Shown: piece after piece, positions 49,106-60,157 of the stretch | How the letters are laid out: the number at the start of each line of letters is the position of its first letter | Position numbering within the stretch: the first letter of the stretch is position 1 | Source: Arthrobacter sp. MYb227 | GTDB lineage: Bacteria > Actinomycetota > Actinomycetes > Actinomycetales > Micrococcaceae | DNA: 64,000 nt | NCBI RefSeq assembly: GCF_002975435.1 | Contig: NZ_PCPT01000002.1 | Coordinates: 186,001-250,000 of the forward strand | Direction of reading: 5' to 3' | Made by a program: the position numbers and the translations under genes | Notes under the pieces: generated by a model | Databases searched by the model: none | What the model was told of the DNA's origin: nothing | Seen by the model: only the letters and a program-made list of their open reading frames with translations

Positions 49106-50677
49106 TTACTCCACACTGAATTGAACCCGTTGCCAGCCACTTGCGCCGTTCGGGGCAGGCTCTGCCTTATCACTGGTCTGGAGCTTCCCCTGACCGTCAA
49201 TAGCTCGAACGCTCACCGTATGATTTCCAGAAGTTCCACCCTCCCAAACATAACGCCATTGACGCCAGGTATCGAGGGAGGCTTCGCTACCGAGCTCGGC
49301 ATCCAGCCATTCTCCGTCATCGATTTGAATCTGAACCCCCGAGATACCTTTGGTTTGTGCCCACGCGGTCCCACCCATCACAACTTGGCCTTCGGAAACC
49401 TTCGCAAAAGAACGCGGAACATCAACACGTGAGGAAAGCTTGATGGGTCCGTGATCGGACCAGCCTCGAGTGCTCCAGTAGGCGACTTTGTCAGCGAATC
49501 GAGTGACCTCAAGGTCGACAACCCATTTGGTGGCCGAAACAAAACCATAGAGACCTGGTACGACCATACGAACGGGGAAGCCATGTTCCAAGGGCAACGG
49601 CTCGTCGTTCATGCCGATCGCCAACAATGACATGCGGTCGTCGGTCAGCACTTCGAGCGGAGTCGAGGCGCTGAATCCATCCTGGGACGTTGAGAGAACC
49701 ATGTCTGCGCCTGCTTGGGGCACGGCACGTTCGAGCAGCTTCCGAATCGGATAGCCTAACCATTTAGCGTTGCCGACCAGCTGACCACCGACCGGGTTTG
49801 AGACACATGTCAAAGTCAGGTAGTTCTCAACCAGTTCGGCCTCCAAAAGATCATTGAAGCTGACCGTAAACTCGTTTTCGACCATCCCGTGAATGCGCAG
49901 CTCCCAATCGTCGGGGTTAATTCTCGGCACCGAAAGCGCTGTATCAATGCGGTAGAAATCCTTGTTTGGAGTAACAAATGGCGGCATCCCACTAAGGTCT
50001 ATTTGTACTCCGGAAGGCAACGCCGCCGCCGGTGTCTTAGCAATGGGTAGTCCGAGGGCAGAGCGGGCTGCTTCGGCGATGTTTCGAGCTGCTGCCAAGG
50101 ACTGCCCAACACCGGCTGCAATTGCAGCACCGATTAGGGACAGTCCGGCGCCAAGCAAGAATTTACGCCGGGTAGAGCCTTGAGAGGTCCCTGGTTTTGC
50201 CGTTGAGTCACCGATTTGTTCTCGACTTTTTTCGGCCCAGGTGCAGAGCCAACGCAACGTGAGCAAACCTGTAAAGGTTCCAATCGTTAAGGGCGTCAGG
50301 TCGGCAAAACTCGTTGCGGGACGCGACAGGATTGCCGCCCCAATGACGATAGCCAGCAGGATTATGCATCCGGAAGCTAAAACGCGTGATTTCTTTGCCA
50401 GCAGCCCGATCGACACCGAGACAAGGAATACCACGATGCCCATTGAAATAAACAGCGCGAGCTTGTCATTGGTTCCGAAGAGCGAGATTGCTAGGTCTTT
50501 GAGCCACGGCGGAGTCATGTCAATAAAAATGGAGCCCATTGCCACCAACGGTGCCGATGCTGTCGCAAAAAACACTGAAACTAAGTGGGCCACGCCAAAG
50601 AGCACTGCCGCGGAGGAAACCCCTGCTAAGCCAAAGTCAAACAATCCCTGGCGACGAGAAAAGGATTTAATTTTCAT
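49106..50677 (-). CDS. Membrane-anchored molybdopterin oxidoreductase (sulfite-oxidase fold)
   Basis: 523 residues. Four N-terminal transmembrane helices (about 12-145), then a twin-Arg segment STRRKFLLGAGLSLIGAAIA, then the Moco domain. The molybdenum-ligating cysteine is Cys291 in YLTLTCVSNPVGGQLVGNAK. A C-terminal Mo-co dimerisation/Ig-like domain follows (GHTSVRAIDGQGKLQ-like pattern near the end). The catalytic domain should lie outside the membrane. Family members oxidise or reduce small sulfur or nitrogen compounds; the electron partner and substrate are unknown. It follows rskA but has its own SigK-type promoter motif. Confidence 0.88.
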   Translation of the reverse strand: MKIKSFSRRQGLFDFGLAGVSSAAVLFGVAHLVSVFFATASAPLVAMGSIFIDMTPPWLKDLAISLFGTNDKLALFISMGIVVFLVSVSIGLLAKKSRVLASGCIILLAIVIGAAILSRPATSFADLTPLTIGTFTGLLTLRWLCTWAEKSREQIGDSTAKPGTSQGSTRRKFLLGAGLSLIGAAIAAGVGQSLAAARNIAEAARSALGLPIAKTPAAALPSGVQIDLSGMPPFVTPNKDFYRIDTALSVPRINPDDWELRIHGMVENEFTVSFNDLLEAELVENYLTLTCVSNPVGGQLVGNAKWLGYPIRKLLERAVPQAGADMVLSTSQDGFSASTPLEVLTDDRMSLLAIGMNDEPLPLEHGFPVRMVVPGLYGFVSATKWVVDLEVTRFADKVAYWSTRGWSDHGPIKLSSRVDVPRSFAKVSEGQVVMGGTAWAQTKGISGVQIQIDDGEWLDAELGSEASLDTWRQWRYVWEGGTSGNHTVSVRAIDGQGKLQTSDKAEPAPNGASGWQRVQFSVE

Positions 50678-50743: not shown

Positions 50744-50771
50744 TATTCGGAGCGCTACCACCGTCGGATTG
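50744..50771 (-). promoter_or_regulatory. SigK-type promoter motif upstream of the molybdopterin enzyme
   Basis: Minus strand: CCAATC (50766-50771) and CCGAAT (50744-50749) separated by exactly 16 bases, 67 bp before the start. The -10-like CCGAAT equals the mycobacterial SigK consensus as I know it, and the same pair with the same spacing precedes the fasciclin gene. Confidence 0.7.
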
Positions 50772-50796
50772 GCAAATAGCCGTTTTAGTTTTGGTT

Positions 50797-51618
50797 TTAG
50801 AGACTCTGGAGCACGATTGGAGCGGTGGTCGGTGCCGGTGAACCTGTGGCAGGCTCAACGGTAATGCCAAAGTGAGTCACTCCTTCCATTGCTCCGCTGA
50901 CCAACAGAGTTCCATCGCTTCGGGGTCCATCGACCATGCCGACAGGGGTTGCTCCGTCACTGGAAATGAGCCACAACTCGTAGGCTTTGTCTTCTGGAAG
51001 GGCGGGCAAACCCTTGGTGGTCACAGCCATCAACCCCTGAGCCGCTGAGTAAGCAATGCTGACCCGAGCCCCATCATCCATGGTCATAGTTTTTGATCGA
51101 GAGTCGGCAGCGGAGAGTATCTCGGTAAGCTGCGCTTCACGCTGGCTCAGTGCGGATAGCTGTTCGCTGAGCTGTTGCTGCTGGGAATTCTGATTCACTA
51201 CGACACCGGTCAGGGCGCTTGCTGCGATAAGCAGGACTCCTGCTGCCAGGGCAAACATGCGTTCATTCTTCTTCGTGCCCGAGGCTGGTTCCGAGTTTTG
51301 CCGTGTTTCGGAATTATCTGCAAAGTCCAAGGCGCGTGGAGAATCAGACGATTCTTGGGCGGAATCTTGTACTTTTTCTGCCGCGGGAAGTTGTGGCGTG
51401 TTCTTGATTGCCGCCATAATGTTGGCTTTGACCCGAGCCGGAGGAGCCACCGGATCCGTGGACAGACCCAATAACGCGGCAGTTTCTTGGAATGCTTGAA
51501 GTTCTTGGCGAACAGCTCTCGATTCCTCCGCATGGCGAAGTAATTCTTCACGTTCTGAATCTCCGAGAGCATTGAGGGCATAGCTGCCCGTCAAGTCATT
51601 TTCGTGCTTTTCCATCAT
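50797..51618 (-). CDS. rskA: Anti-sigma-K factor RskA-like protein
   Basis: 273 residues, ATGA overlap with sigK. N-terminal cytoplasmic anti-sigma region (DLTGSYALNALGDSEREELL, about 8-90). One transmembrane helix at about 121-143 (MFALAAGVLLIAASALTGVV). Extracytoplasmic RskA domain (KAYELWLISSDGATPVGMVD; THFGITVEPATGSPAPT). The classical HxxxCxxC zinc motif is absent, as usual for RskA. It holds SigK inactive until proteolysis or redox signalling releases it. Confidence 0.92.
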   Translation of the reverse strand: MMEKHENDLTGSYALNALGDSEREELLRHAEESRAVRQELQAFQETAALLGLSTDPVAPPARVKANIMAAIKNTPQLPAAEKVQDSAQESSDSPRALDFADNSETRQNSEPASGTKKNERMFALAAGVLLIAASALTGVVVNQNSQQQQLSEQLSALSQREAQLTEILSAADSRSKTMTMDDGARVSIAYSAAQGLMAVTTKGLPALPEDKAYELWLISSDGATPVGMVDGPRSDGTLLVSGAMEGVTHFGITVEPATGSPAPTTAPIVLQSL

Positions 51619-52196
51619 GCCACCCCCATTAGATCTCGAAGTTTACTCATGCCGTCACGTATCCGTGTTTTTGCGGTACCCACCGGAATCTTGAGCAATG
51701 CTGCCACTTCGTGGTGGGTATATCCTCCGAAGTATGCAAGTCGGATGGCCTCTCGATGCATTTCGCTCAGCCCGTCCAACGCGGTTCGGACCCGGTGGGC
51801 TTCGTCGTGGAGTATTGCTGTGTCTTCAACGTTGTCATAGCTTGCTTGGAAATCTTTGATTCCTTCGCGAAGGTCCCGGTCTTTGCTCGCTTGACTGGCT
51901 CGAACCCTGTCGACGGCTCGTCGGTGAGCCAAGGTCAATAACCACGTCATAGCGGTACCGCGTGCCGGATCGAAGCGGGCCGCCAGTTGCCAGGCCTCTA
52001 CGAAGACTTCCTGAGTTACTTCCTCACTTTGCGAAGTGTCTTTCACGATGCGACGCACTAAGCCAAAGACCCGTGGGGATACAACGTCGTAAAGCGTTTC
52101 GAAGGCATGCTCGTCACCCCCGGCGGTCTGAAGCAACAACTCCTCGAGCCGCGGCCCAATCCCGGGTTCCGAAACTCCTGGCTGTTGGGAACTCAT
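51615..52196 (-). CDS. sigK: ECF sigma factor SigK
   Basis: 193 residues. Region 2 (FETLYDVVSPRVFGLVRRIV; TQEVFVEAWQLAARFD; AMTWLLTLAHRRAVDRVRA) and region 4 (IRLAYFGGYTHHEVAALLKI, PVGTAKTRIRDGMSKLRDLM) are complete. Directly followed, with overlapping start and stop, by the RskA anti-sigma gene. The neighbouring fasciclin and molybdopterin-enzyme promoters carry matching SigK-type motifs; none was found before sigK itself. Confidence 0.92.
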   Translation of the reverse strand: MSSQQPGVSEPGIGPRLEELLLQTAGGDEHAFETLYDVVSPRVFGLVRRIVKDTSQSEEVTQEVFVEAWQLAARFDPARGTAMTWLLTLAHRRAVDRVRASQASKDRDLREGIKDFQASYDNVEDTAILHDEAHRVRTALDGLSEMHREAIRLAYFGGYTHHEVAALLKIPVGTAKTRIRDGMSKLRDLMGVA

Positions 52197-52312
52197 ACGC
52201 CTAAGCGTCTCATGCGATTACTTTCTCTCCTGCCTTATGATCTGGCGCGTCGAGCCGGAACATGAACGAAGCGGGGTTCAAAGGCGGAAGCGATTAGCCC
52301 TCGAGGATAAGG

Positions 52313-52355
52313 GCAGAGGCCGCTTGAGGAGCCAGGCTCATCAAGCGGCCTCTGC
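52313..52355 (-). terminator. Terminator hairpin after the fasciclin gene
   Basis: GCAGAGGCCGCTTGA (52313-52327) pairs perfectly with TCAAGCGGCCTCTGC (52341-52355), loop 13. It lies 39 bp past the fasciclin stop and would separate that gene from sigK. Confidence 0.8.
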
Positions 52356-52393
52356 GCAGAATCGCTATTCTGCTCTCACGCCATGGGCTAAAA

Positions 52394-53089
52394 CTACTTC
52401 TTGGCAGGTGGCATGAGCACCTTGTCGACGAGGTAAACGGTTGCATTTGCGGTCTGCACGCCACCGCAAATTACCTTCGCATCATTGACCATAATGTCAT
52501 CTCCGCTACCGGTGACTTTGAGGTCTTGGCCTTCGACGGTCTGGTGGGTCCCATCGATGTCGCTCGGTGCGATCTGGCCCGAGATCACATGGTAGGTCAA
52601 GATGCTGCTCAGGGTGTCAGCATTGGCGACGACGCCCTTGAGATCATCGGCGGGAATTGCTCCAAACGCCTCATCAACGGGTGCGAAGACGGTGAATTCT
52701 CCACCGTTGAGGGTATCGACCAGATCGACTTTGGGGTTCAGCTTGCCGGAAACCGCAGCCGTCAGTGTCGTGAGCAGTGGGTTGTTGGAGGCAGCAACGG
52801 CAACCGGGTCCATGGCCATTCCTGCTACAGATCCCTTGCCGCTGGGAACGGCCTTGGCATAATCCGCACAGCCCGAGCCCACCAGATTTGCGGCGGGATC
52901 GCTGGCAGATTCGCTGGCCATTGCCGAGCTGCTTGGTGAAGCCGGTGCGCTCGTAGCTGTTGCCGATGAGGACGGTGCAGCCGACACGCTGCTGGTGGAG
53001 TCGTTTCCCGTGGAACAGGCGGTCAAGCCGATCATGGCGACTGCGAGCGTTCCCACGGTTGCCGCAAACTTTCGGTTCATGCGCTTCAT
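52394..53089 (-). CDS. Fasciclin-domain lipoprotein (MPT83/MPT70-like)
   Basis: 231 residues. Lipoprotein signal peptide with lipobox LTAC (Cys25), a Ser/Ala/Thr-rich linker to about residue 70, then one fasciclin (FAS1) domain: [47 protein letters not shown] and the C-terminal [13 protein letters not shown]. Surface adhesion-type protein anchored in the membrane. In mycobacteria MPT70/MPT83 are SigK-controlled, and the SigK-type promoter motif upstream here reproduces that link. Confidence 0.93.
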
Positions 53090-53162
53090 GTCATTCTCCT
53101 TGCCAGACGGCGATTGGATCGCCGTATTTTTCCCTCCCGGTCGGGAGGGGCTGTCAAGAGGT

Positions 53163-53190
53163 ATTCGGTGCCGTGCGTGAGACGGATTGG
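53163..53190 (-). promoter_or_regulatory. SigK-type promoter motif upstream of the fasciclin gene
   Basis: Minus strand: CCAATC (53185-53190), 16-base spacer, CCGAAT (53163-53168), 74 bp before the fasciclin start. Same hexamers and spacing as at 50744-50771. The rest of the gap up to 53404 contains nothing recognisable. Confidence 0.7.
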
Positions 53191-53404: not shown

Positions 53405-54355
53405 CTACCGCTTTGAAACCGATTCCTGATCGGAATCGACTGGTGTTTCGTCTACTTCCTCAGAGTCCAAGATTTGTTTGCGTGGCGGGGCAAAGAGAAT
53501 CCAGCCCACGGCCGCGGCTCCACCGAGGAATAACGCAACCCACCAAGGGAAACCTTCGGTCTTGCCATCACCGTCGATGACATTGTTAAACTCCGCGGTA
53601 TCCGGCGGTGAAATGCGAACCCCGTGAACTAGTAATCGGTGCGTATTGATCCCCAGTGGGGAACAGGTAATCAGCGTGACGTAATCCTGATTGTCGACAA
53701 TGGCCAGTGAAGAAGTATCTTCTGGCAAGACGGTGTCGATCTTGTTGACCTGGTACCAATGCTTGTCGCCGAGTACTTGGACCGTGAAGATATCGCCGAT
53801 TTCGGCCTTGAGCAGCGGAGTAAATAGGCTTGCGTTAACGAGCCCGGAGTGTGAGGTAAGCACCGAGCGTGTTGAGGGACCTCCAACGGGAAGAGACGAG
53901 CCAAAAATATGGCCAACCCCCTTGCGCAGCACCTCATCGGCGGTGCCGTGGTACACCGGTAGTGAAATATCCAGCCGCGGGTAGAGGACCTGTCCAATCA
54001 CTCCATCATCACTGACACTGAGTAACTGTTTATAGGCTTCGGTGGCTTCAGCATCACCTTGGGGATCTGAACTGGCCGTATATGGATCTCGCAGGGGGCC
54101 TTGCGGCATCCGTTTGTTGTATTCGTTGGCAAGGTCAAGTGCGTGTTGGCGTGCTTCGTCATCCAAATCATCGACGGAATCGATGTAGCCCGAGACCTGC
54201 TCGTTGTGGTTTCTGGTGGAGAACCAATCGGCTGCCTGAGTGTAGAGCAGCATCCCAATGCCGAGCACAATGATGGCGAAAATTGCCATGCCGGTGTAGT
54301 CGACTCGCTTCTTAGCTGGTGTAGGAGAGACTGACGGATCAGATGTCTTATCCAT
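53405..54355 (-). CDS. Class C (pilin-polymerising) sortase
   Basis: 316 residues. N-terminal transmembrane helix (about 22-40), sortase domain with catalytic His169 (TSHSGL), Cys231 (TLITCSPLG) and Arg240. The lid motif DPY (90-92) marks class C enzymes. A C-terminal transmembrane helix follows (WWVALFLGGAAAVGWILF). It links pilin subunits by joining the LPxTG threonine of one to the lysine of the next, on the outer face of the membrane. Third gene after tip and backbone pilins; two strong hairpins precede it. Confidence 0.94.
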   Translation of the reverse strand: MDKTSDPSVSPTPAKKRVDYTGMAIFAIIVLGIGMLLYTQAADWFSTRNHNEQVSGYIDSVDDLDDEARQHALDLANEYNKRMPQGPLRDPYTASSDPQGDAEATEAYKQLLSVSDDGVIGQVLYPRLDISLPVYHGTADEVLRKGVGHIFGSSLPVGGPSTRSVLTSHSGLVNASLFTPLLKAEIGDIFTVQVLGDKHWYQVNKIDTVLPEDTSSLAIVDNQDYVTLITCSPLGINTHRLLVHGVRISPPDTAEFNNVIDGDGKTEGFPWWVALFLGGAAAVGWILFAPPRKQILDSEEVDETPVDSDQESVSKR

Positions 54356-54405
54356 CTGTGCTCCCTTGCCTTGTGCGTAAAGAATTCATCGACTGAAAAT
54401 TAGGG

Positions 54406-54485
54406 TGGCCCGAGTTGCTACTTGGGGATCGCAACTCGGGCCAGGGAAAGCCTAGATAGTGAGAAATGTTTTCTCACTATCTAGG
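54406..54485 (-). terminator. Two tandem hairpins between backbone pilin and sortase genes
   Basis: In the direction of transcription: TTTCTCACTATCTAGG-type stem at 54451-54485 (16-bp perfect arms, 3-base loop), then TGGCCCGAGTTGC (54406-54418) with its complement at 54431-54443 (13-bp arms). Only a short T-run follows. They could act as partial terminators or processing/stability elements that keep sortase expression below pilin expression. Confidence 0.75.
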
Positions 54486-54505
54486 TGGATGACCAGGGCG
54501 TAAGC

Positions 54506-56065
54506 CTAGGCCGCGTTCTTCTTGCGACGGATCGCCAAGGCTCCGCCAACTACCAGAAGTAGTATGCCGCCGGCGGTCAGGATCAGGGTCCCTGAGCTAC
54601 CGGTCAGTGGAAGCGTGAAGCCAGCGTTCTTTTTGACGTTGACCACGTTGATGAGGTCGCCGGAGGCTGCGCCGTCGAGGACCTCAACGGTCTCGTTGAC
54701 CTTCACCTTGATGGGCTTTGCGAGCAGTTCGTAGCCTGCTGGTGCCTTGGTTTCAACGATCCAGTATGGCTGGAAGTCTGCATGATCATCAGCGATTTCA
54801 GCGCCGTTGGCCCAGTTTGAGTAGCGCAGGCCCGGAATTGAAACCTTGCCACCTGCCACCGAGGTGAACTTGTCGGTTGAGTTTCCTGCAACATCGAGTG
54901 TCAGCGGAGTAGCGCCCGGGGTTGCCGGGTCAACTGCGTAAATCTGGAATTCTGCCCCGACCAGGCCGGTTGCCGTCTTATCACCCTTCACCTTGGTGAA
55001 GTTGATATCGCCCCACTTGGTGTCCGTGCCCGGGGTGACGTAGCAGTTTTCCTCACACGGCGGCAAGGTCGGGTCGGTCGGATCTGTCGGATCGTCACCG
55101 AAGAACTGATCTACGCTCTCACCGTTCGGGAAGATTAGACCCTCATTCTTGATTGTACCGATCGCGTTTACCGTGGTGGGAACAACAAGCTGCACCTGAG
55201 TGGTGGGGTTAGCTAGCTTTGCGGAAGTGAGCTTGGTGAGGCCGGTCGCGGTAAGTACCGCGGCAACGGTGTTCGTCGTAGGGAAGTGCTTCACGATGTA
55301 ATCGGTATCGACGTCCAGTGGAATGACGTCTTCGTCCTGTTTGATGCTTGCAACTGCCGGCTCTGCGGCGCTGTAGGTGAGCTTGCCATCGAGCTTATCG
55401 GCGATCGCGTAACCGGTAATGCTCTGCCCCGAGGCAGGTGCCTGAACGGCGCCCTTGATGGTCCAGACGACTTCGTCGCCAAGCTTGATGGCGTCCTTGT
55501 CTTCAACAGTCTTGGAGCCAACCAATGCGTTCTTCGGGTAGACGTGAACGTTGGTGATCCACTTGTCCAGTTCCGTCGGGTGCGTCATCGGGATGGCTAC
55601 CAGGAATGGTGCCGCGCCAATGTGGCCCGTTGGGGTGGTGGTCTCGTCAACGAAGTAGAGGCCAATGGGCAACTTAGTAATAGTTGCCAGGCCCTTGTCA
55701 TCGGTCAGCCCCGACTTTGAGCCGCTTACTCCTGCTACGAGCTTGCCTGCTTCGTCGACGGTGAGGTCCTGTGCGGCGAGCCAGCCCTCATTGGTGCTCA
55801 GCTCAATGCCGGGAACCTTCGTGGCGGTGAATTCGGCACCGGCAAGTGCGGTCCAGTTGTCGGTAGCACCCTCCGGCAAAACGAGCCCGTTATTATCGGC
55901 CCCGTTTTGAGCAGGTTGTTCAAATTTGTGGAAGGTTATGCTTCCCTCGGTGGGAATTGCAGGGGCCGCCTGTGCTGCAGTGCCTCCGCTGAGAAGCAGC
56001 AGTGCCGTGGTGGCAACTGCAGCAATTCCAGCGCGGAGACCGCGCTTGAATGACTGGTTTTTCAC
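54506..56065 (-). CDS. SpaA-type major (backbone) pilin
   Basis: 519 residues from GTG 56065 (AAAGGA six bases upstream). Signal peptide (RGLRAGIAAVATTALLLL then AAQAA). Pilin motif with the linking lysine at about 178 in WITNVHVYPKN. Ig-like domains with an E-box, YWIVETKAPAGYELL, for intramolecular isopeptide bonds. Sorting signal LPLTG at about 485, then a hydrophobic helix and RRKKNAA tail. It is the polymerised shaft subunit of a covalent pilus assembled by the downstream class C sortase. Confidence 0.93.
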   Translation of the reverse strand: MKNQSFKRGLRAGIAAVATTALLLLSGGTAAQAAPAIPTEGSITFHKFEQPAQNGADNNGLVLPEGATDNWTALAGAEFTATKVPGIELSTNEGWLAAQDLTVDEAGKLVAGVSGSKSGLTDDKGLATITKLPIGLYFVDETTTPTGHIGAAPFLVAIPMTHPTELDKWITNVHVYPKNALVGSKTVEDKDAIKLGDEVVWTIKGAVQAPASGQSITGYAIADKLDGKLTYSAAEPAVASIKQDEDVIPLDVDTDYIVKHFPTTNTVAAVLTATGLTKLTSAKLANPTTQVQLVVPTTVNAIGTIKNEGLIFPNGESVDQFFGDDPTDPTDPTLPPCEENCYVTPGTDTKWGDINFTKVKGDKTATGLVGAEFQIYAVDPATPGATPLTLDVAGNSTDKFTSVAGGKVSIPGLRYSNWANGAEIADDHADFQPYWIVETKAPAGYELLAKPIKVKVNETVEVLDGAASGDLINVVNVKKNAGFTLPLTGSSGTLILTAGGILLLVVGGALAIRRKKNAA

Positions 56066-56154
56066 GGATTTCCTTTCATTTTGGCGCGTAGAAGTACCCC
56101 GCACCGTGGTTTAAGTTGTTACTGAGTGATTGAAAAAAGTTGGATAGGGCCTAT

Positions 56155-59100
56155 TTATGGCGTGGGTTGTCCATAACGGTTGCGACGCCATAGATACCCG
56201 GCTCCAAGGCCACCACCAATGAGTACCAGCGCACCGAAGGTAAGGGCGGAAACTCCGTTTCCACCGGATACAGGAAGCGGTAATAGGCCCGGATCCCTAA
56301 CGATCATGAGATAGCCGCTGGGGTTCACACACGCGATAAAAGTTGGTGAATTGACCGGATCGCAACGCTCCTCGAAGAGAACAGTTCCGGGGGTGAAGAT
56401 ATCTAGCTGACCGAATTTCGCTTCCTCGCCGACAATAAATTTGATGGGTTCGGCGAGTAGCTGTACTCCGGTCACCTTTCGGGTCTCCGTGGCACTGACT
56501 CGTTGAGCCGTCGGTGCCTTGGTCTCGAGCAACCAATAGGTGCCTGCCGGCACTCGTTCGGCCCGCCAGCGACCAGCTTGTTGGCCGGTAGGAATTGGGT
56601 AGAACCGGGCACATGATTCGGTGCTGTCCAGTGCCGGGGGAGTACTTGAAGATTCACACATGAAACCCGGTACCGCACCCATGCTGCCGTCGTTGTCCGA
56701 ACGCAATTCGAACTCGTGACCAAGGAGGTTTTGGAGATTGAGCGTCTCACCGGTTGCGAGGGTTCCACGGCCGTCCTTACGCACGGTGAAGTAATCTGCT
56801 CCAACGGCATGGCTGACGGTACAGGCAGCTACCGCGCCACCGATCTCACCTTCGGTGATCCCGGTTCGGCATTGGTTTGCTTCTGGCTCTTGGGCACCAG
56901 CTGCCGCGCTGACGCGGTTGGTGAAGTGTGTGCCGGGGCTAGGGGACTCGGGCAGCCAATGAGGGGCAACCTGTGGCGGTGTGCCGACCTTGACCGCGAA
57001 CCAGATCTGGGCGCTTACCTCACCAGGAAGCAAGCTGAAGGCAACGGTTGTAAGAGTCCATCGATCGGTTCCGTTATAAACCGGAGCCGGAACGTAGCTC
57101 GCTTCAAGGCTTCGGACCACGTTTCCACGTTCATCCATCATGTGAATTCCGCGCGCTTGTGTTCCATCCAGGACGGGAGCCGAAGCATCCCACTCTGCTA
57201 CACGCAGCACCTCGCTCAGATCATCGGTCACAACGATTCCATCGATCTGGTAACTTGGGTCGGTTTTCTGCACCTCAAGGTTGTAATAAATATTGCCGCC
57301 ATGGTGCAGCTGGGCACCATTGCTGGGCTTTGAATCCTTAGAGATGGTCCAAGTCTTCACCAGGTGATCGGTGCACACCGGATCTTCGTCCTGACCAGGA
57401 GCCGTACACTTTTCCGGAACTTCGTCGTTGCCTTCGACGAGGAAATTCGTCATCTTGTAGGCAGTAGCATTGTCGCTATCTTCCCTAGGTTTACCCTCTG
57501 TACCGATGTTTGGCTTCACCGAGACGGTATAGCTGAGTGTGTACTTCGTCTTTGCGGGAACGGTTGCTGTGCCAGTTCCATCCTTGGCTCCGGCGATTTT
57601 AATCGTCTGCGCGTCAGCGTCGTACACCGCGAAGAAGCCATCGGTGACCTCGAGGGGGGTGTCCGGATCGGTGACATCGAGTACCGCTAATGAAGAAAGA
57701 TCCAACTCGGCGTCGTCGAGCACGTCCTTCAAATGGTCGGTGTAATCAACTTCCAGAGCCGCACCAGTTCCTGCGGTGTTATCGAAGGAAAGCGTGTATT
57801 TTACGTCTTGCTCTTCCGTTACCGCCACGCCAGTTTCTGGATCGGAAGTCTTTGAAACGGTGAGCGCCGGAATTTGTCCTTCATTGGTGATGGTGCAAAC
57901 GACCTGTGGTCCCTTCCAGCTGCCAGGAAGCGTAGCCGGAACTTCCAAGGACCGTTCAAAGCCGGTGCCGAGGTCGCTAAGGTCCACTTCGTAGTTGGGA
58001 TCGGTGATCGGTAGTTCTGTGTTAACACATCTAAAGATCGGTGAATACAGAGTTGTATCAAGCGTCGGGCTATCGGGTGCCATTGTTTCACCGATAGTGA
58101 CAGTATCGCCGGTATAAACACCGACCGGACCGAGCTTCCGGTCCTGAAGGCCGGAAGCATCCAGCTCACCGCCGACCCCATTGGTGTGGATACTCTGATA
58201 TTTGGCCCCGTCGCCTAACCTCAATGCAAACTGGTCTGTCGGGTCAATGCGGGCAATAACATCCTTATCCACTCGGACGGTGGGAGGACTTGCAAACGAT
58301 GCGAGGTCTGTCGTGAGGATTCGGTCGCTGGGCCCGGTGGGGGGAAACGGGTTTATGCTTGCGGTTTCACTGAACGTATTCGGATTCAACATCCGCTGAT
58401 AATCAGAGGCCTGGACAACCAGCTGGCCCGAGCGGGCAAAAACCATTCCGTTCGCTTGTCCGCCACTGGTTCCAGTGCTAAAGGTCAGCTTCTGCGAAAT
58501 TGTGAAGTCTTCGAACGTGGCTGGTGTCGTGGTGCTTGCCGCTTGGATGTCTTCGCTGTTGATTGTCCCTAGATATGCATCCGCGACGGTGCCTTGGCTT
58601 GAAACTAGAAAAGTGAGGTTACCCGCCGAGTCAAAGTCGAAGTCGCCATTCGTAGCGGAAAGGAACGAGCCTTTCGGTGTCAAAGCGGTGCCAATTAAAC
58701 CCGCACTCCAGTCATTTCCAGATATGGCAGCCTTGAACACTTTGAGTTGAATTTTCCTATCAGCGGCGATGCCCTCGGGCTGATACATACCGAAATAAAA
58801 CGCTTCGTCGAAAGGATTGAATGCGCCAGCAACAATCTGCTGAGGGTTTTCAGTATTTAGTGTCTCGCCCAGATCCATGCCAGAAATGATGCGACGAGGA
58901 TTAGTGGATTCCGCAATTGGCTGATCCGACTCGTATCTCCACACGTCGATGAATTCGTGTCTTTTGCCGTTCGCCGTTAACAATGCCTGCTGGTACTGAT
59001 TGGTGAAGTAAAAAACTCCATCTTCTGTGACACCAAGGGCATTCGGATTTCGCTGGGTGGTCCCTCCCGTGAAGGCAGGTGGAATCCTGCCCGGAGGAAT

Positions 59101-59694
59101 AGCTAGATCCTTGACTAACCATTCAGGAGAGTTCTGCGAAACGGGAAAAGCATTGCTTTCCCCATTCATATGGATGTAACGGATATGCGCTTTCCACTGA
59201 TTTGGGGCTCCAATAAGGTTCGGAGCCACCAATGAAAAGTAGCGGTCCAGGTTCTCTGTCGCAAAAGACTTGCTGTCTGCATAGGGTGCAATATTGGTGT
59301 CGAGTGGTGATTCAGGATCGTCGCTACTCTGTACCTCTGGAACAGGGCTGACGCTACTGGATTCCGTAGACTCCACGACTTGTGAGGGGCTTTCCGGCGC
59401 CGAAGGCTCAGTCGATTCGGCATGCTGTGAATCTTCGATCGGCTCGGTAGATGCGGAATCGAGGGGGGATTCTACGGGAACAATTTCAGGTTCTGTGGAC
59501 TCTAGAGGTCTTTCGTCAAGTCCCGTGGTGATTGTTAGATCATCGACTCTCGTCTCGCTTTCGGGTGACGCTGGAGTAGCCGCGAATGAGCCTGCCCCAC
59601 CAGCTAGCAGAGCGAAGCTGACAGCTATCCCTATCAGTGCGGTCCGTCGCCGTTGTGAGCGTTCGATTCTTTGGCGCGAGTACACCTTTGTCAC
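56155..59694 (-). CDS. Large sortase-anchored pilus tip/surface protein
   Basis: About 1180 residues from GTG 59694 (a GTG at 59778 would add 28). Signal peptide (RRRTALIGIAVSFALLAGG), then a Ser/Glu/Pro-rich stretch of about 100 residues, a large N-terminal region with beta-propeller-like GxFDFDSAGNLTFL repeats, several DUF11/isopeptide-type Ig domains (VSKTSDPETGVAV) and a final domain with an E-box-like YWLLETKAPT. The C-terminal sorting signal is LPVSG (LPLPVSGGNG), a helix and an RRNRYG tail; LPVSG departs from canonical LPxTG. First gene of the pilus operon, so likely the adhesive tip subunit. Confidence 0.88.
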   Translation of the reverse strand: MTKVYSRQRIERSQRRRTALIGIAVSFALLAGGAGSFAATPASPESETRVDDLTITTGLDERPLESTEPEIVPVESPLDSASTEPIEDSQHAESTEPSAPESPSQVVESTESSSVSPVPEVQSSDDPESPLDTNIAPYADSKSFATENLDRYFSLVAPNLIGAPNQWKAHIRYIHMNGESNAFPVSQNSPEWLVKDLAIPPGRIPPAFTGGTTQRNPNALGVTEDGVFYFTNQYQQALLTANGKRHEFIDVWRYESDQPIAESTNPRRIISGMDLGETLNTENPQQIVAGAFNPFDEAFYFGMYQPEGIAADRKIQLKVFKAAISGNDWSAGLIGTALTPKGSFLSATNGDFDFDSAGNLTFLVSSQGTVADAYLGTINSEDIQAASTTTPATFEDFTISQKLTFSTGTSGGQANGMVFARSGQLVVQASDYQRMLNPNTFSETASINPFPPTGPSDRILTTDLASFASPPTVRVDKDVIARIDPTDQFALRLGDGAKYQSIHTNGVGGELDASGLQDRKLGPVGVYTGDTVTIGETMAPDSPTLDTTLYSPIFRCVNTELPITDPNYEVDLSDLGTGFERSLEVPATLPGSWKGPQVVCTITNEGQIPALTVSKTSDPETGVAVTEEQDVKYTLSFDNTAGTGAALEVDYTDHLKDVLDDAELDLSSLAVLDVTDPDTPLEVTDGFFAVYDADAQTIKIAGAKDGTGTATVPAKTKYTLSYTVSVKPNIGTEGKPREDSDNATAYKMTNFLVEGNDEVPEKCTAPGQDEDPVCTDHLVKTWTISKDSKPSNGAQLHHGGNIYYNLEVQKTDPSYQIDGIVVTDDLSEVLRVAEWDASAPVLDGTQARGIHMMDERGNVVRSLEASYVPAPVYNGTDRWTLTTVAFSLLPGEVSAQIWFAVKVGTPPQVAPHWLPESPSPGTHFTNRVSAAAGAQEPEANQCRTGITEGEIGGAVAACTVSHAVGADYFTVRKDGRGTLATGETLNLQNLLGHEFELRSDNDGSMGAVPGFMCESSSTPPALDSTESCARFYPIPTGQQAGRWRAERVPAGTYWLLETKAPTAQRVSATETRKVTGVQLLAEPIKFIVGEEAKFGQLDIFTPGTVLFEERCDPVNSPTFIACVNPSGYLMIVRDPGLLPLPVSGGNGVSALTFGALVLIGGGLGAGYLWRRNRYGQPTP

Positions 59695-60157
59695 AGATCC
59701 CCATCTCAACTTCAACCAACCAGATGATGTCCCGCTGATTTCTGCATTCTTCTCCCCCCAGAGTGGAATACCAGTCACTGCGCGGCGACATCCTGAATGC
59801 TTTCATCGAACCTCAAGGAAGTCCAAAGAACTTTGGGATTGATTTGATCGAAATTATTGCTCTCAGTATTGCCCGTTGAATGGCAGTTGAGTGAGTTTAT
59901 TTCGCGCCAGATGTCTCGAACTTTGCCGCGTTCTCGGGGCTGAGTGACAATAATTCATCAACCGAAGATGATCTATCTTTGGGAGGTGCAGGCGCGTGAG
60001 GGGCCGCCTGAAGTTCGTTAGCTGATGCGTGGGTGAATTGTGTCACCCCGGCCTGCGTGTGGCGCTTCCCACGACGCCGCGCTTCGACGCGCCGAGTGCG
60101 GAGTTGGCATCTAGCGGGCTGGCCAGTGCTGACTAGCCGAGCGTTAGACACTTGCTG
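59695..60157. other. 463-bp gap upstream of the pilus operon
   Basis: Contains the pilus promoter region. No gene, repeat or strong hairpin was recognised; short frames here have no family features. Confidence 0.4.

Follow-up and report, generated by a model that had tools for sequence, protein, structure and literature searches.

The closest described system to the locus considered here is the mpt83-sigK-rskA cassette, which has been published together with its SigK site (PMC7509140). The same work describes the SigK site as conserved across Actinobacteria and the site of the M. tuberculosis mpt70 gene as recognised by SigK orthologues, and according to it the activating signal of SigK is still unknown (PMC7509140). 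For M. tuberculosis SigK a cysteine redox switch was described; cysteine-mutated SigK was minimally active, and the naturally cysteine-less SigK of Nocardia was functional (PMC7509140).

Molybdenum enzymes of the sulfite-oxidase fold under ECF control were previously known in proteobacteria, to which the present locus would add a recurrent actinobacterial case. In the sulfite response of Sinorhizobium (RpoE4-SorT) and Starkeya (SorAB) a cognate ECF sigma factor likewise controls a molybdoenzyme of this fold; however, these are Alphaproteobacteria, the enzymes are soluble and periplasmic, and no fasciclin lipoprotein is included (PMC6527743). The sigma-F regulon of Caulobacter is likewise a small ECF regulon with a PF00174 enzyme, YedY (CC2748), but it has an unrelated anti-sigma factor (DUF1109), an enzyme of another subgroup, and a response to chromium and cadmium (PMC3511200). 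The searchable literature yielded no molybdoenzyme as a recurrent actinobacterial target of SigK, though one may have been mentioned earlier in SigK-regulon or ECF-classification work.

The window, i.e., the whole stretch of 64,000 nucleotides that was analysed, comes from a genome whose nearest named relatives are in or beside Paeniglutamicibacter (78% identity to the P. antarcticus moly product), and carries on its minus strand the gene order fas-sigK-rskA-moly, with sigK and rskA between the two target genes. The fas gene (52394-53089, minus strand) encodes a fasciclin-domain lipoprotein of 231 aa similar to MPT83/MPT70 (PF02469, E 4.5e-28), with the lipobox LTAC and cysteines C74 and C208 that are invariant in 12 relatives; the lipobox and the closest match, MPT70 (1nyo, E 3.3e-60), bear out the designation “MPT83-like” given in the preliminary description of this DNA. 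The sigK gene (51615-52196, minus strand) encodes an ECF sigma factor of 193 aa without cysteine, which scores 258 bits with the NCBIfam SigK model NF007228 (cut-off 226) and has M. tuberculosis SigK as its best solved relative (4nqw, E 1.4e-47). It overlaps by 4 nt with rskA (50797-51618, minus strand), the gene of a membrane anti-sigma factor (PF10099 RskA_C, E 2.8e-25; NF052375 anti-sigma factor, 145 bits), whose N-terminus NDLTGSYALNAL resembles, in a by-eye comparison, the ECF19/AS19-1 anti-sigma motif HTLAGAYALDAL from PMC7406223.

Three features of a SigK regulon are present, namely, a SigK orthologue with adjacent RskA, two-box sites, and an MPT83-type fasciclin lipoprotein as a target. 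The lipoprotein family, the sigma and anti-sigma factors, and the type of site before the fasciclin gene are the same as in mpt83-sigK-rskA of M. tuberculosis, M. bovis, and Yersinia (PMC7509140), while three features differ: the present locus has a second target, a molybdoenzyme of sulfite-oxidase type preceded by a site of its own, SigK is devoid of both redox cysteines, and the -35 box in this genus is CCAATCC, not CCATCC. The fas half of the regulon is already known, and the locus is taken as an extension of a known regulon.

The two copies of CCAATC-N16-CCGAAT with identical hexamers and spacing, which had been reported from inspection of the window, were both recovered as exact minus-strand matches. 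The first (53163-53190; CCAATCCGTCTCACGCACGGCACCGAAT) lies before fas precisely where it had been placed, with 73 nt separating the -10 box from the ATG (53089); the second (CCAATCCGACGGTGGTAGCGCTCCGAAT), before moly and directly past the rskA stop, had been placed one base off, at 50744-50771, and actually occupies 50745-50772, with 67 nt from the -10 box end to the ATG (50677). Besides the identical hexamers and the spacer of 16 nt, both promoters have a C right after the first hexamer; with this extra common base the shared core becomes CCAATCC-N15-CCGAAT, for which CCAATCC-N15-CCGAA(T) is the better notation.

The genome-wide scan that had been proposed was run on both strands of the 4.31-Mb genome and gave three exact copies, two of them before fas and moly, and no exact match to the reversed pattern used as a control over the whole genome. 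The third copy (C24:109422) was rejected as a regulon member, since it lies inside an FAD-monooxygenase ORF. When up to two mismatches were allowed, the window scan gave 12 matches against 6.8 expected from shuffles, which is only weakly above, and so within a single genome the perfect motif alone is informative; relaxed scans of window and genome were set aside because of excessive noise. The evidence that we regard as decisive for these two predicted sites is their conservation across genomes.

All eight sampled genomes of the genus carry fas-sigK-rskA-moly with both sites perfect, and five of the eight have no further motif copy in the genome. Among 10 close relatives the boxes are invariant in 13 of 13 positions at each promoter; the invariant positions outside them amount to 7/15 in the spacer and 37/162 in the other upstream columns for fas, and to 5/15 and 50/156, respectively, for moly, where the upstream columns take in the end of rskA and hence coding sequence. 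The earlier question of whether the boxes might fail to be conserved before orthologues was thus looked at, and both of them are conserved. Extra exact copies in G111 and G074 (L121, L122), located inside overlapping short ORFs, and in G075 C1 (L123), located in coding-like sequence, were rejected as regulon members.

Two loci of the sampled genomes (L124, L125; G075, G142), apart from the main sigK locus, carry a second fasciclin paralogue that is preceded by a perfect SigK-type site of its own. In G113 a perfect CCAATCC-N15-CCGAAT (L126:3001-3028) is found about 60-75 nt before the gene of a secreted, probably wall-anchored protein, which is followed by a sortase gene and then a lipoprotein-like gene; judging by this site, SigK possibly has an additional target there.

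Elsewhere in Micrococcaceae both sites remain, often with a changed last -10 base (CCGAAA, CCGAAC, CCGAAG), and in some genera the -10 box also reads ACGAAT. The sites are kept in other gene orders as well: fas-moly with no intervening sigK in genus g4 and Paractinoplanes, and moly-fas-sigK-rskA in genus g8 (three genomes, L129, L130, L133), in families f6 and f14, and in Nocardiopsis. In one Streptomyces locus the order is sigK-rskA-moly-fas, with sites before sigK and moly. In many Arthrobacter moly is unlinked, within the fetched DNA, from fas and sigK and keeps its site (ACAATCC-N15-ACGAAT or close), and the unlinked fas has CCATCC-N15-CCGAAT. The same form precedes the fasciclin gene of Mycobacterium sp. 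BK086, whose moly homologue has no site; the site is also absent before moly in one g18 genome (L081) and in one paralogue (L200). The idea that the two promoters co-vary in their last -10 base (G/G, C/C) was considered and dropped, as it fails in Glutamicibacter and f14 (T/A, T/C, C/A, C/G).

Two records titled Sporosarcina beigongshangi (Bacillota; L208, L209) contain Arthrobacter-like fas-sigK-rskA-moly loci, and this assembly is likely mixed or mislabelled. A contig of an Acidobacteriaceae bin (L238) carries moly preceded by a SigK-type site, together with a sigK-like gene and fas in divergent orientation.

The specificity of the moly site was controlled with paralogues. By a scoring scheme which was shaped after the family sites had been seen, and which is partly circular inside Micrococcaceae but not for other families, 43 of 121 moly loci have an upstream site with a score of at least 12, reached by shuffled regions in 0.48%; it is therefore the other families and the exact counts over whole genomes that carry independent weight. 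In a quick tree of the 121 proteins, with SH-aLRT support only, the Micrococcaceae form two main paralogue clades. The SigK-type clade has the site in 33 of its 36 members, including 13 of the 15 without sigK or fas nearby, and none of the 13 Arthrobacter-type members of the second clade has it. Five genomes contain one copy with the site and one without (Arthrobacter sp. ov407, A. oryzae, H-02-3, C9C5, and P. gangotriensis).

The predicted control of fas and moly by SigK is well supported by these sequence comparisons; for the SigK-type promoters initially proposed before both genes, the NF007228 assignment, the 4nqw match, the RskA neighbour, and the conserved boxes all provide strong support. 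In this soil bacterium and its relatives SigK, an envelope-stress sigma factor, seems to activate no more than two promoters. It might instead be supposed that the moly site is a relic or a copy of the fas promoter and is little used, moly being transcribed mainly by read-through from fas-sigK-rskA, downstream of which it lies in the same direction; family f11 indeed has the order fas-sigK-rskA-moly without a site of its own before moly. However, the second site stays invariant in the ten relatives despite spacer drift and is kept where moly is unlinked or upstream of fas, while a strong hairpin occupies the fas-sigK gap, and we consider such a use of read-through to be very unlikely. Related promoter boxes are common to several ECF groups, so that the boxes here might be read by a different ECF sigma factor in place of SigK. 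The chance of this seems slighter still, since sigK-rskA lies between both sites and stays with them through various gene orders, and SigK orthologues recognise sites of this kind in published reporters (PMC7509140).

The moly gene (49106-50677, minus strand) encodes a membrane-anchored molybdenum enzyme of sulfite-oxidase type with 523 aa, in which the PF00174 domain (E 1.1e-42) and the cysteine ligand position C291, invariant in 31 sequences, indicate membership in the sulfite-oxidase-fold enzymes. Predicted membrane helices in the first 156 residues are followed by the invariant twin arginine R170-R171, a further hydrophobic helix, the molybdenum domain, and a C-terminal beta domain; the model (pLDDT 84.8) has long N-terminal helices. 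The helices, the twin arginine, and the domain type agree with the former designation as a membrane molybdoenzyme, and the catalytic domain probably reaches the outer side of the membrane through Tat export. A second moly copy in the same genome (G000 C24:83134-84684) is 62% identical and has no SigK-type site.

The best fold match of the enzyme is SorA of Starkeya (2blf, E 1.7e-23), then sulfite oxidases, with YedY/MsrP more distant, and sulfite-oxidising enzymes under ECF control have been described (PMC6527743; PMC3511200), so the regulon might be a sulfite or methionine-sulfoxide response like that of the proteobacterial ECF-controlled SorT/YedY, a proposal compatible with SigK control. 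Nevertheless, moly scores far under the equivalog cut-offs of SorA (102 bits, cut-off 600), SorT (61 bits, cut-off 570), and MsrP (YedY; 57 bits, cut-off 207), and it has membrane helices, which SorA and SorT do not. Moreover, SorA R109 (Cys+5), R55, and H57, which we take to be sulfite-pocket residues, are aligned with V296, I244, and T246 of moly, the alignment there being ungapped but weak. Such a response is doubtful in our estimation, at perhaps one chance in four.

No cysteine was found in SigK of any Micrococcaceae checked, so that the M. tuberculosis-type pair (133 and 183) is missing there. The SigK of Streptomyces and Nocardiopsis keeps the pair, and the site before moly is present in these too; occurring with and without SigK cysteines, it points to a moly-SigK link that is independent of the M. 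tuberculosis cysteine switch. With SigK free of cysteine, and with the residues aligned to the sulfite pocket of SorA replaced in moly, the shared redox role once suggested for fas and moly can only be presumed, while a shared envelope role is plausible in view of their adjacency in several orders and many families.

From the genes, both boxes, the conservation of these boxes, and the gene orders, all observed directly in the sequences, we infer a regulatory course in which membrane RskA would hold SigK until an envelope signal releases it. RNA polymerase with the released SigK would then bind and read CCAATCC-N15-CCGAAT before fas, and transcription would pass the hairpin into sigK-rskA, resulting in autoregulation. 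The fas promoter probably drives sigK-rskA too, since in the window no SigK-type site stands out before sigK, nor does any sigma-70-like site before sigK or moly. The same motif would be read before moly, and the lipoprotein would cooperate at the envelope with the Tat-exported, outward-facing molybdoenzyme. The reading in which we have high confidence is a compact and self-contained SigK regulon with two promoters, kept in check by RskA, and with a presumed joint role of fas and moly at the envelope.

What the MPT70/MPT83 antigens do and which signal SigK answers to are still debated, and a two-promoter regulon including a molybdenum enzyme offers a concrete handle on both questions in a harmless, cultivable genus. 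The locus suggests that lipoproteins of the MPT83/MPT70 family may work together with a redox enzyme. Only tentatively, with the odds rather against it, it can be proposed that these lipoproteins are functional partners, whether as electron carrier, substrate, or substrate-binding subunit, of a molybdenum oxidoreductase that is anchored in the membrane, exported by Tat, and active on a substrate other than sulfite. On this proposal SigK ancestrally switched on the pair in Actinobacteria, and mycobacteria retained the lipoprotein but shifted the enzyme out of SigK control.

The strong hairpin of the fas-sigK gap (52313-52355, minus strand) has no U-tract and lies about 40 nt past the fas stop. 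In 14 of 14 relatives a stem occupies the same position although its arms have diverged, and stems as strong occur in 1 of 700 shuffles; no Rfam match was obtained in this region, and no count of base-pair covariation is claimed, because the MAFFT alignment misplaced the arms. It is a probable attenuator or 3'-end stabiliser, which may set the fas:sigK ratio in such a way that more fas product than sigma factor is made. Another, small hairpin is seen in the fas leader (53107-53125; ACGGCGATCCAATCGCCGT, minus strand), just 5' of the ribosome-binding site. Adjoining the SigK locus, the minus strand at 53405-59778 encodes a class C sortase, an LPXTG major pilin of SpaH/EbpB type, and a very large surface protein.
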